Positions 6,204-43,159 of a stretch of 64,000 nt of DNA are shown here, piece after piece. The stretch comes from Stentor roeselii (lineage: Eukaryota > Ciliophora > Heterotrichea > Heterotrichida > Stentoridae). Made by a program: the position numbers and the translations under genes. The stretch covers positions 39,984 through 103,983 of the forward strand of contig RSEH01000174.1 of the NCBI GenBank assembly GCA_006503475.1, read 5' to 3'. The notes beneath the pieces were generated by a model. The model worked only from the letters and a program-made list of their open reading frames with translations, did no database searches and was not told the DNA's origin. The stretch's first letter is position 1. Each line of letters begins with the position of its first letter.

Positions 6204-7820
6204 ATGTCAAAACATTTCGCTTTCGACAACAGTCTTGCCTCAATCGAAGAATGCCTAGAAGCCTTAGAGCACCGAGATCGTTACCTAAAATCCCTCGACG
6301 AACAAGCAGGCTTTTCATCTCACACAACTCTTTACTCTCCAAAATACAGCCAAAACACAACAGGAAGCGAAAAATTCTTCCGCTGTCGTCACGATCGAGA
6401 GCTCTCTTCTCTAAAGCACGAAGTTGACAATTTAAAATCATCATTCATTGAGAAAACTGAGCACATACTTCACTTAGAAGCTTTATTTCACAGAGCTTTA
6501 AACCAAGTCTGCCTGGAAATCGAAGGAATTCATGAAAAACGTAAGAAAATCTCACAAATAGAAGCGAAAATCACTGAAAAAATATCAAACCAACTGAATC
6601 ACATCCCGGCAGGAGTTTTTCCAGCTCACAAGTCGCGATCCCCAGGCGATTTTTCCTTTTCCAACAACGAAGGAGAAGAAACCTCAAACTTCAGCTTTGG
6701 CCAAATCGACGAAAACATCGAAGTGAACCTTCCACATGAAAATGACTGTAAAGAATTCGAAGAATTTCTAAAAAAACAACAGTCAAGTTTTTACTCTGAC
6801 CGGCAACTGGAAGAACATGAAGTGATGCAGATTCCTTATCTTTTTGACTTAAACTTGAAAATTTCTACTGTTTCCAGAGTCTTCGCTCCAGGTTCCAGCT
6901 TGACGGAAAAGTATAAAGTTGAAAAAGTCATCGCTTCTACTCATTTTTCTACTGTTTTGTCTTGTTTCGACCTGTTTGAAAGGAAAAAAGTTTGCATTAA
7001 GGTCATTCATAACCAGAAAGAAACTTTTGATCAGGGTCTTGACGAGGTGAAAATCATGAACTTGCTTCAAAAACATGCAAAAGGTGGCCTTGCTGCGAAG
7101 AACATTGTGAAATTACTGGAGTTTTTTTATTATCGGGAAAGTTTGCATATTGTTTATGAATTACTTGGAGAGAATCTATTTGTTCTTGCCTCGAACCCAC
7201 ATATTTTGCATATGTTTCAAGGGGAATGCCTTGGAAAAATTATTAAACAAGTGTTGACTGCTTTGGATTTTATTCATTCTCAAGGAATTATTCATGCTGA
7301 TATAAAACCTGAGAATATTTTACTGTCATCTCCCTTGACACCTAGAAGGTCTTTTAATACTTTTGATGTAAGACTTGTTGACTTTGGAAGCAGTTGTTAT
7401 CAGACTGATTCTCTTACAACTTATATTCAGTCAAAGGCTTATAGAGCTCCAGAAGTCATTGTTGGAGGAAAGTACGACTTTAAAATTGATATCTGGAGCT
7501 TAGGGTGCGTCATTGCTGAACTGCTCACTGGTGAAGTGCTGTTTGAAGCTTGTAGTTTGAAGGAAATGATTACCAAGGTAAAGGATATTTAGATTTTTAA
7601 GTGTCTTGGACAACTGCCTGGAGAGGGGAAATTACTTGAGTTGTATGTTAAGGATAATCAAATTATTGATGAAGAAGAAGTAGAAATTAAAACTTTACAG
7701 CAGATCACTAATAATGATCAGGAACTTGAATCTTTTCTTAGATGTCTTCTGACAGTTGACCCGAATTTCAGACCTTCTGCTGAAGAGGCCTTGTCGCATA
7801 GTTATATGAGTTCACTGTAA
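6204..7820 (+). CDS. DYRK-like protein kinase
   Basis: 533 residues once the 15-nt intron at 7578-7592 is removed. Without it the frame ends inside the kinase domain after KVKDI. Residues 1-225 are acidic/helical, with coiled-coil potential. The kinase domain follows, with VCIKVI, ELLGENLF, HADIKPEN, DFGSSC, TYIQSKAYRAPEVI and DIWSLGCVIAEL. SSC, YIQS and the YRAPEVI context are typical of DYRK/HIPK kinases, which autophosphorylate the second Tyr of YxY. Here that loop is TTYIQ, a single Tyr as in DYRKs. The catalytic-loop HRD/HCD reads HAD, keeping the catalytic Asp. The glycine-rich loop looks degenerate (VIASTHFSTV), so activity is uncertain. The last exon encodes the C-lobe end (LLTVDPNFRPSAEEAL). 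Stop TAA at 7818-7820. Confidence 0.85.
7578..7592 (+). other. 15-nt intron
   Basis: GTAAAGGATATTTAG interrupts the DYRK-like kinase between AAG (Lys) and ATT (Ile). It contributes the in-frame TAG. Excision restores the conserved C-terminal kinase lobe. A sits at intron position 10. Confidence 0.88.
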
Positions 7821-16110: not shown

Positions 16111-16497
16111 ATGGAGTCTTCCATAGACAGCCGAGTAGTGCGTACAATCCGAAGTCTTCGTAAGTTGCAAAGCACAGCAGATTCATTTTCGACAAGAACC
16201 AGTACTCCATCACACGAAAACCAAGTGATTGAAATCATTTCAAACCGAGAAGAACTTAACAGTTTCCGTGAAACTCTGACATCAAGCGAAATTTACGAAG
16301 TAATAAAAAATGACTCATCAATAATCAGCGACCTGATGACCGAGCCTTCATTAAGCGCAGGTCAAATTCGTAAAATCCACGAAAAATTACAGGAATTTAT
16401 TGAAACCAAAAAGATTCAAATAGCGAAACAGTCGATAAGTGCAAAGATTCAAGAAAGAATGGAAAGTTTAAAGAAACAATTGGCTGATTCTATATAA
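16111..16497 (+). CDS. Small helical hypothetical protein
   Basis: 128 residues, MESSIDSRVVRTIRSLRK at the start. It is hydrophilic and mostly helical, with a Ser/Thr-rich linker near residues 18-35 and a predicted coiled-coil C-terminus (KIQIAKQSISAKIQERMESLKKQL). There is no signal peptide, membrane segment or catalytic motif. I do not recognise it. The stop codon lies 13 nt from the stop of the convergent Fe-S assembly gene, so the transcripts must overlap at their 3' ends. Confidence 0.6.
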   Translation: MESSIDSRVVRTIRSLRKLQSTADSFSTRTSTPSHENQVIEIISNREELNSFRETLTSSEIYEVIKNDSSIISDLMTEPSLSAGQIRKIHEKLQEFIETKKIQIAKQSISAKIQERMESLKKQLADSI

Positions 16498-26013: not shown

Positions 26014-27956
26014 ATGGAAATCTTTTTCTTTCTCACCGTCTTTTTTTCAGCCTTTTCAATGTTAGTCTCAATAATATCCATAATCGTTCACTTGAAGATC
26101 CGTAAGATGTTGCGACATCCTGGAGAATTTATTGTGATTCAGTGCATTTCTCAGCTTTTTCTTGATATTCACTGGTTGGAAGTGATAGATTCTTTCTGGA
26201 TGTAAGAAATAAGCAGTTTTCTAATGACTCATCCTGCCGCTTGCAAGTGGTTGGCGATTTTTGATGTATTTTCCAGTGCTTTGTCGATGAACTATATGCT
26301 ATGTCTCAGCGTTGAAGTCGTCATTCGCATATCGAAAAAAGTTTATCCTTATCATAGGCTGCGTAAATACTCTTATCATCTCTTCTCTGTTGGCCAAGCA
26401 GGGTTTTTATTAATTTTAGCTGAATTTCATCAGGACTTTGGAAACTCTGATATTGGAACTTGCTCTTTAGTACCTACTTCTTTAACTGAATCTATTCGTA
26501 TTTATACTTTCGCTGCTGAGATTGTTTTGATGTGGGTTTTAATTGTTGTGATGTTTAGGAAAGTCGGGAAAAGTTACTCGAATGTGATGTTTAATTACTT
26601 TTGTGTGATTTTTTCGATGACTTTATCTGTGACTGTTGTGAACATTTTAGGATACTCTCAAAATTTCCATGCGAAAAACCCTGAAATCTACTCAAATATA
26701 GCCTTAGTTATCGGAAGCACAACAGGGATTTCAATCGGTCTCTCCAGATTAATAAATAAAAGACTGATAAAACAAATATTATGGAAATTCGGAATAAAGT
26801 GGAGGTTCAATCAAGGAACTCTCGGAAGTGTATATTCAAAAAACGAGTCCTTCTTAAGCGGAAACATTTACAACCTAGGCGATTTATTCGATAACATCAC
26901 AAAAAAGTATTTCGTCGAGCTTCTCTCAATAATCTGTTTAAGATTCCTCGAGAAAGGCAACAAAAATTTTATCATCGAAAACGAAGCCGGTTTCGACCAC
27001 TACGAATTCGACGAGTCTCTATTCGACGACCTTTCCATAAATTTCGACATGCCAAGAATAAAAGAAAGTAATTCTCAAACAGTTTACAATCCAGACATGT
27101 ACCTAATCGACTACGCTCCTGAACTTTTCTCAAATATCCGAAGAGAAAACTTCATATCCGACAATGAGATCTACGAGTAAAGCCAATCAGGTCCTTCTTC
27201 ATCCCTCACAACTTGGAAAACTTAAAAAACATTCAAAAAGGGAAAGGAGGTCGAAGTGGTTCATCAGTTTTTTTTACTTATGACCAAAGATTTGTAGTGA
27301 AAACAGTAAGTAATTCAGAAAAACTTCAACTTTTAAGGATTCTTCCTGATTACCGTAAAAGAATCAGTTATTCTAACAGTCGACTTGTAAGGATTATCGG
27401 CTTGTTTAAGATAAAACCTGAGAATCAAGATTTCATCATCATGGAAAATATTGTCTCTTCTCAGCAAGATGCGATTGTTTTCGATATAAAAGGGTCTAAT
27501 ATTGATCGCTTTGTTCATGAAGAACTTGCTTCTGATGAGGCTTATGGAAAAGTCTTGAAAGACTTGAACCTTGCTTCCAGTGGGTTGAGTTTAAATCTTT
27601 CTGATGAGGATAAAAAGATGATTATTGATGATTTAAAGAGGGACTTTCAAGTACTTGCTTTTCATAATATTATGGATTACTCGGTACTTTTCGCTTTTTA
27701 TAGAAAGGAGTGCAGAGCGATTACAAGATATGATGTTCAGGGAATTGATAGGGTTTATTCTATTGGGATTATTGACTTCTTGCAGAATTTTAATATTAAG
27801 AAAAAAACGGAGAAGTATCTTAAGAAAATTATTCATCGAGAAGGACAGATTAGTACTGAAGTCCCGGAATTGTATAAAAATAGAATTTCTAGCTCGATTT
27901 GTTCTATTATTGATAGGGACATGAAGATATCGCTTGCTAACTTTAACCCAGAGTGA
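26014..27956 (+). CDS. Seven-TM receptor fused to phosphatidylinositol phosphate kinase (GPCR-PIPK)
   Basis: 637 residues from three exons with introns at 26202-26216 (15 nt) and 27177-27190 (14 nt). Residues 1-275 contain about seven hydrophobic helices, in the manner of a class E/cAMP-receptor-like GPCR. A loop then leads to a PIP kinase domain. LIDYAPELFSNIRRE before exon 3 and KGKGGRSGSSVFFTYDQRFVVKT after it are contiguous motifs of that family, so the exon join is well supported. Further motifs are DIKGSNIDR, MDYSVLFAF (about residue 543) and IGIIDFLQNFNIKKKTEKYLK. Such fusions, known from Dictyostelium RpkA and oomycetes, are thought to couple receptor sensing to PI(4,5)P2-type lipid synthesis at membranes. 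Ends in TGA. Confidence 0.9.
26202..26216 (+). other. 15-nt intron
   Basis: GTAAGAAATAAGCAG lies after the first membrane segment of the GPCR-PIPK gene. Excision joins AT to T (Ile) and opens the frame into FLMTHPAACKW. A sits at intron position 10. Confidence 0.85.
27177..27190 (+). other. 14-nt intron (unusually short)
   Basis: GTAAAGCCAATCAG is 14 nt. Its removal joins GA to G as GAG and makes the PIP kinase domain continuous (SDNEIYE into SFFIPHNLENL). It contains the in-frame TAA. No other GT..AG pair nearby restores the frame. The A six bases before the end is kept, as in the 15-nt introns. A one-base assembly error is the main alternative. Confidence 0.7.
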
Positions 27957-42728: not shown

Positions 42729-43159
42729 GTCCAATCAAATTAATTAAATAATTTAGTTGAACACTGTAAATCTCGCTTCTTTTTCCAAGCCCTTGCAAAA
42801 TTGAAGCCCCAAAGATGAAAAGTGTTCATCATAGACAGAGACAATAGCCTAGTCAGCTTCGCCACTCTTTCGATAAAGTGCCAGAAGGAACTTATCCATA
42901 GATAGACTTATATGATAGTATTGACCCCGAAAAAAAATTTTTTATACAGAAACAGTAAAAAAATAATTATATTTTTCGCAGGTTATATATCGGGGCTGGT
43001 GGAGTTTTTATCAACGGATAAATGTCCAACTCAGTGCTTAAAGAAAGTTGGATGAAGAAATTGAAATTAAGTGTAATTATCTTGAATTTTTTTACTTGTT
43101 TTTATAAACCTGTAATGGTGCTCCACTTTTTAACTGGTGGGATAAAGAGACTTTTTTTT
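42729..43159 (+). pseudogene. Decayed Nudix copy with a remnant of the TM gene 3' end (unit 2)
   Basis: 42729-42753 matches the last codons and stop of the TM gene plus its 3-nt spacer. From 42754 the sequence follows the Nudix gene, but ATG is replaced by TAG. Matching blocks include GATGAAAAGTGTTCATCATAGACAGAGAC, GTCAGCTTCGCCACTC, GGAACTTATCCATAGATAGACTTATAT and GGGGCTGGTGGAGTTTTTAT. Frameshifts and stops occur throughout. After GGGATAAAGAGAC (about 43150) it jumps to coiled-coil gene sequence, so the Nudix 3' quarter is deleted. Confidence 0.82.

Follow-up and report, generated by a model that had tools for sequence, protein, structure and literature searches.

A probable 14-nucleotide intron in a PIP-kinase gene of a heterotrich-like ciliate, with further candidates in its paralogues

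Results

Structure of the PIP-kinase gene

The window (the whole stretch of DNA analysed, 64,000 nucleotides; G000:C87:39984-103983) belongs to an assembly of 44.4 Mb in 522 contigs. Its 40 open frames of at least 150 codons end in TAA (25), TAG (9) or TGA (6); the host probably uses the standard code, with TGA read as stop. One window gene encodes an alpha-glucosidase showing 100% identity with a JGI metagenome protein, its closest named ciliates among the matches listed being Blepharisma stoltei, at 46%, and Stentor coeruleus, at 44%. The host is on this basis probably an uncultured heterotrich-like ciliate. The gene at 26014-27956, assigned 7TM and PIP-kinase parts, is organized as follows:

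26014..26201, forward strand: exon 1, with the ATG start (conceptual translation; leave-one-out family alignment)
26202..26216, forward strand: predicted intron 1, 15 nt, GTAAGAAATAAGCAG, phase 2, at column 179, shared with 15-nt introns of paralogues
26217..27067, forward strand: exon 2 (conceptual translation; leave-one-out family alignment)
27068..27082, forward strand: intron 2 (probable), 15 nt, GTAATTCTCAAACAG, phase 1, no in-frame stop (column 529, homology alignment)
27083..27176, forward strand: exon 3 (homology alignment)
27177..27190, forward strand: predicted intron 3, 14 nt, GTAAAGCCAATCAG, phase 2 (frame, homology, position)
27191..27956, forward strand: exon 4, PIP-kinase catalytic domain through the TGA stop (Pfam PF01504; PDB relatives; open frame)

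The product matches PF01504 (PIP5K) with an E value of 2e-48 (165.5 bits against a cut-off of 27), and its relatives among structure sequences are PI5P4K and PIP5K. The best PF01504 stretch (residues 398-556) begins 15 residues past the junction at residue 383 that removal of intron 3 creates, and the alignment with the PI5P4K structure sequence spans this junction, with a five-residue gap directly after it. The N-terminal part appears to be 7TM, judged by eye from its long hydrophobic stretches. Protein searches yielded no transcript of this species; besides P0001 (60% identity) they returned P0128, encoded on a 1,933-base contig, which matches 247 exon 4 residues at full identity and begins downstream of the 14-nt intron.

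A genome search with the window protein yielded 61 matches, a family of dozens of members, with clusters at G000:C273:155500-172000 and C170:137279-144867. Loci were taken for 30 of the matches (two being the window gene), plus four and two further stretches, and the family alignment combined 34 gene models with the proteins P0001 and P0003. Protein-to-DNA alignments were run against a profile of 26 of these 36 rows, after ten truncated or run-together models had been dropped and with the gene's own row left out; they were length-neutral, every intron length from 8 to 30 nt carrying an equal penalty.

Intron 1 also admits a nested 12-nt form, GTAAGAAATAAG, which was preferred under lax gap costs and in one other alignment run. 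Intron 2 is probably a stop-free 15-nt intron that the initial annotation had overlooked. Its site (column 529, phase 1) also bears introns in L004, L016, L024 and L025, and its removal brought the alignment to 655.2 with 15-nt introns allowed versus 651.5 without them, a gain of 3.7 net of the intron penalty; under lax gap costs the alignment left it unspliced.

The 14 bases and the reading frame

The segment GTAAAGCCAATCAG is indeed 14 nt long, as first annotated, and occurs once in the 44.4-Mb assembly. Excising 27177-27190 joins ...SDNEIYE to SFFIPHN... in phase and, left unspliced, the segment shifts the frame, which hits TAA at once; both consequences had been proposed beforehand and both were borne out. 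Among GT..AG segments 8 to 60 nt long whose donor lies up to 60 bases away, no other opens the frame, whether intron 2 is kept or removed, and a separate frame scan that included GC donors gave the same result. P0001 (60% identity) is uninterrupted at the junction and aligns without gaps to the spliced product (NQVFEVDLQRSFSIPSN versus NFISDNEIYESFFIPHN).

Compared with U2-type heterotrich tiny introns, GTAAAGCCAATCAG has their GT donor, AG acceptor and A in sixth place from the 3' end (A9 of 14), restores a conserved protein and lies at a position common to relatives; at 14 nt instead of 15 or 16 nt, it is a length variant of the class. Internal eliminated sequences of Blepharisma have TA boundaries. 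This identity was rejected for the 14-mer, whose terminal direct repeat is GT, not TA.

The frame also opens if two bases are dropped at any one of 13 places close by, so a ribosomal frameshift (-1 or +2) past the unspliced segment needed weighing. When 14 nt was forbidden and a frameshift admitted at penalty 12, the window alignment lost only 12 of 645 score units, so that homology alone leaves frameshifting possible at this single site; +1 shifts at stops are described for Euplotes (PMC10235951). The shift required here, however, is not +1, and reading past the segment should leave about four surplus residues, of which P0001 and the paralogues have none. Moreover, intron ends and an A at -6 are found in all six 14-mers described below, the five from this family lying at phase-matched intron positions. 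We consider frameshifting extremely improbable.

A different reading holds that a one-time 15-nt intron suffered an inactivating deletion and now stays unspliced, making the gene a young pseudogene. Degenerate PIP-kinase copies do exist in the family, but these dead copies need three (L004:630-1162) and eight (L049) frameshifts, whereas the genes with 14-nt introns are otherwise intact. In the window gene, 254 codons downstream remain open, with a coding score of 2.6 in frame versus -4.9 at best in the other frames, which makes recent inactivation very unlikely.

Position among paralogues

The 14-nt intron falls at alignment column 560 in phase 2, and ten paralogues (L004, L005, L006, L007, L018, L028, L031, L032, L033 and L035) have 15-nt introns at this same column and phase. 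The alignment chose 14 nt at the window site under both settings, and also when P0001 and L004 were removed from the profile. Judged from these paralogues, the 14-nt intron probably arose when a 15-nt intron at this site lost a single base.

Further candidate 14-nt introns in the family

Four more introns of 14 nt were predicted in paralogues of the window gene:

C170 gene: GTAAATTTAAATAG, column 529, phase 1; 15 nt in L004, L016, L024 and L025
L032: GTGATTTTATTTAG, column 421, phase 0; 15 nt in L028 and L033
L035: GTAAAGGTAAATAG, column 421, phase 0; 15 nt in L028 and L033
L034: GTATTTTTAATTAG, column 560, phase as in the window gene; 15-nt paralogue introns at this column

For L034 the coding model picked a 23-nt form and the homology alignment 14 nt. 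For L035 the coding model picked 14 nt, and the homology alignment gave frameshifts at penalty 12 or a nested 8-nt form at penalty 40. The C170 gene set includes one gene represented in the alignments by its kinase half only; its full-length rerun, at lenient gap costs, gave one 15-nt intron and no frameshift.

With the frameshift penalty at 40, 37 alignments, several of them covering partial genes, contained 46 introns: 38 of 15 nt, four of 14 nt and single introns of 8, 9, 12 and 21 nt, with none of 16 nt. The degenerate copies were kept out of this count, L004:630-1162 having been dropped beforehand. Among the odd forms, the 8-nt one is nested in a full-motif 14-nt form and the 12-nt one in a full-motif 15-nt form, the 21-nt one contains a 15-nt form and the 9-nt one overlaps a 15-nt form. 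If L035 is scored as 14 nt and the 9-, 12- and 21-nt forms are omitted, 14-nt introns make up 5 of 43 in the family (95% interval 4-25%). One gene model, at the end of L008, has a 16-nt junction, which was left uncounted, the 37-nt last exon lying at the locus edge. We also set aside the 14-nt rows L015:1168, L019:4000 and L032:3417, which lacked a GTA/GTG donor plus motif, gene context or homology. The last of these (GTTAAATAATCAAG, minus strand, 14 nt) connects a pair of open frames in a leucine-rich-repeat-like gene; it has a GTT donor and its upstream frame may be chance, and it was not counted.

Recurrence also bears on an assembly or sequencing error, by which an ordinary 15-nt intron would have lost one base in the assembly, a reading in keeping with the 15-nt introns of paralogues at the same site. 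At penalty 12, frameshifts appeared in weakly conserved stretches of L028, L031 and L035, which were read as introns at penalty 40. At the latter setting, the five introns are the only frame changes in the 37 family alignments (64,729 nt), which makes error a poor explanation; if errors are capped at three per 64,729 nt and assumed to fall evenly, 0.03 would be expected in 43 introns against five observed (P ~2e-10). The longest run in the 14-mers is T5, and an unrelated SERINC gene has a 14-nt intron too (see below). An error is accordingly improbable, and this poor fit, together with the recurrence in the family, makes 14 nt look like a genuine minor intron length class there (5 of 43). The initial annotation had presented the window intron as a lone exception to 15 nt; that part does not stand, as it is one of a minor length class, while a real spliced 14-nt intron is retained as the best reading.

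Length scans of the window and the genome

The initial annotation had put six other window introns at exactly 15 nt, which is about right: the frame requires introns at 7578, 12890 (minus strand), 26202, 31556 (minus strand), 32307 and 1201. To this set the overlooked intron at 27068 has to be added, and the junction at 1201 is also open to a 9-nt reading, GTAATTTAG (9 nt) and GTAATTTAGAGATAG (15 nt) both fitting the frame. A weak 15-nt candidate lies at 43109 (minus strand).

Apart from GTAAAGCCAATCAG, a motif scan of 184 kb (the window plus 120 kb) detected no intron of 14 nt, compared with 11 of 15 nt. When the motif was not demanded, the same 184 kb held four 14-nt GT..AG junctions versus 5, 2 and 3 for control ends, thus no excess. 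Genome-wide, the motif was matched 2140 times at 13 nt, 1493 at 14 nt, 5773 at 15 nt, 1337 at 16 nt and 1390 at 17 nt. The 13-nt count exceeds the 14-nt count although no acceptable 13-nt intron was seen in open reading frame scans, so a 14-nt class does not stand out from background in these motif counts. One candidate of 13 nt, at window position 16160, was rejected, as the unspliced frame stays open there. The 13-nt version of the motif, GTAANNHANNYAG, outnumbers those of 16 and 17 nt by some 50-60%. A search of the protein-kinase family, in which 135 of 1346 candidates were scored, returned nearly all full-length matches and was uninformative for frame breaks.

A candidate in a SERINC gene

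From the 1493 genome-wide matches to the 14-nt pattern GTAANNNHANNYAG, the first 20 on the list were taken for a check of their flanks, and one of the 20 had coding sequence on both sides. This site, GTAAGTTTAAACAG at C1:123279-123292 (L070:880-893), lies in a SERINC gene, which contains a 15-nt intron as well. The encoded protein matches PF03348 with an E value of 2e-63, and a SERINC3 structure sequence aligns gap-free across the 14-nt junction. The SERINC frame would also be opened by four different GT..AG segments of 14-56 nt. For each of the five 14-nt introns other than that of the window gene (family and SERINC together), one or more GT..AG alternatives exist that are longer, shifted or nested.

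Predicted branch point and spacing

All six 14-mers start with GT(A/G), end in AG and have an A at -6 (position 9), the SERINC intron having been found with a pattern that demands this A and the family gene models having rewarded it. In the window 14-mer the GTAAA donor and the CAG acceptor are retained, as is the A at -6. The corresponding A, at position 10, is present in 64 of 65 compiled 15-nt introns, a list that drew partly on scans favouring this A. Five of the six 14-mers also have an A at position 10, compared with 27 of the 65 15-nt introns at the matching place (Fisher P 0.08); GTGATTTTATTTAG has A9 and lacks A10.

Two geometries follow from this arrangement. Branching at A9 would give a 9-nt loop with the usual 5-nt tail, and branching at A10 would give the usual 10-nt loop with a 4-nt tail. 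On the simplest view the donor-branch spacing is shorter by one base in the 14-mers, while a 10-nt loop kept with a 4-nt tail is possible. The initial annotation was right that the A at -6 is retained; its placement of the missing base between donor and branch is one of two possibilities, because five of the six 14-mers have an A at both positions 9 and 10.

Discussion

We conclude that 27177-27190 is very probably a true GU-AG intron of 14 nt, which the ordinary (U2-type) spliceosome would excise in a heterotrich-like ciliate with a standard code and mostly 15-nt introns. The case is built on genomic sequence: the 14 bases, the frame that they interrupt, their conserved position and phase and their recurrence are observed, and the splicing of the RNA, the branch point, the direction of the length change and the kind of organism are inferred.

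Among the 8806 annotated introns of Stentor coeruleus, 8173 are of 15 nt and 633 of 16 nt (PMC9505925). The suggestion that the 15-nt rule is not absolute is therefore correct and already known from these 16-nt introns. According to the same source, S. coeruleus resembles the organism studied here in its GU-AG, A/T-rich introns, few per gene, its standard genetic code and the A six bases from the 3' end, which is the 10th base of 15 and the 11th of 16. It differs in that none of 14 nt are annotated and the minor class is of 16 nt, whereas the minor class in the family studied here is of 14 nt; by analogy, the 14-nt class looks like the counterpart of the 16-nt class of S. coeruleus (PMC9505925).

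Other lineages offer partial parallels. Blepharisma stoltei likewise combines tiny introns, described as predominantly of 15 and 16 bp, with a compact genome near 41 Mb, but its UGA encodes Trp, whereas TGA is a stop in the window (PMC9942806). Mikrocytids also have very narrow intron lengths with one major and one minor class; unlike the present organism they are parasites, and 217 of their 224 introns are 16 bp and seven are 17 bp (PMC10245619). For heterotrich introns in general, about 95% are put at 15 bp and the remainder at 16 bp in the text of one source (PMC11441545), and passages of two others name the 15 nt of Stentor as the extreme at the short end (PMC12316389, PMC12862383). Our literature search, which covered titles, abstract openings and passages, found no report of a 14-nt ciliate intron, and its single match to a 14-nt intron was a melanoma paper. 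The shortest spliceosomal intron that it found was of 15 nt, and the claim that the present one is among the shortest accords with this, 14 nt being one base below.

It seems likely that 14 nt is an established second length class in this heterotrich-like lineage, comprising perhaps several percent of introns, with either a 9-nt loop or a 4-nt tail being workable. The minimum intron that the spliceosome tolerates is an open steric question. If the 14-nt reading is true, the known lower limit of spliceosomal introns would move from 15 to 14 nt, and heterotrich genes of this kind would be split by annotation pipelines that accept only 15-16 nt. Natural pairs of 14- and 15-nt introns at the same site would then be available for dissection, and such matched pairs could test which spacing can shrink, that between donor and branch or that between branch and acceptor.
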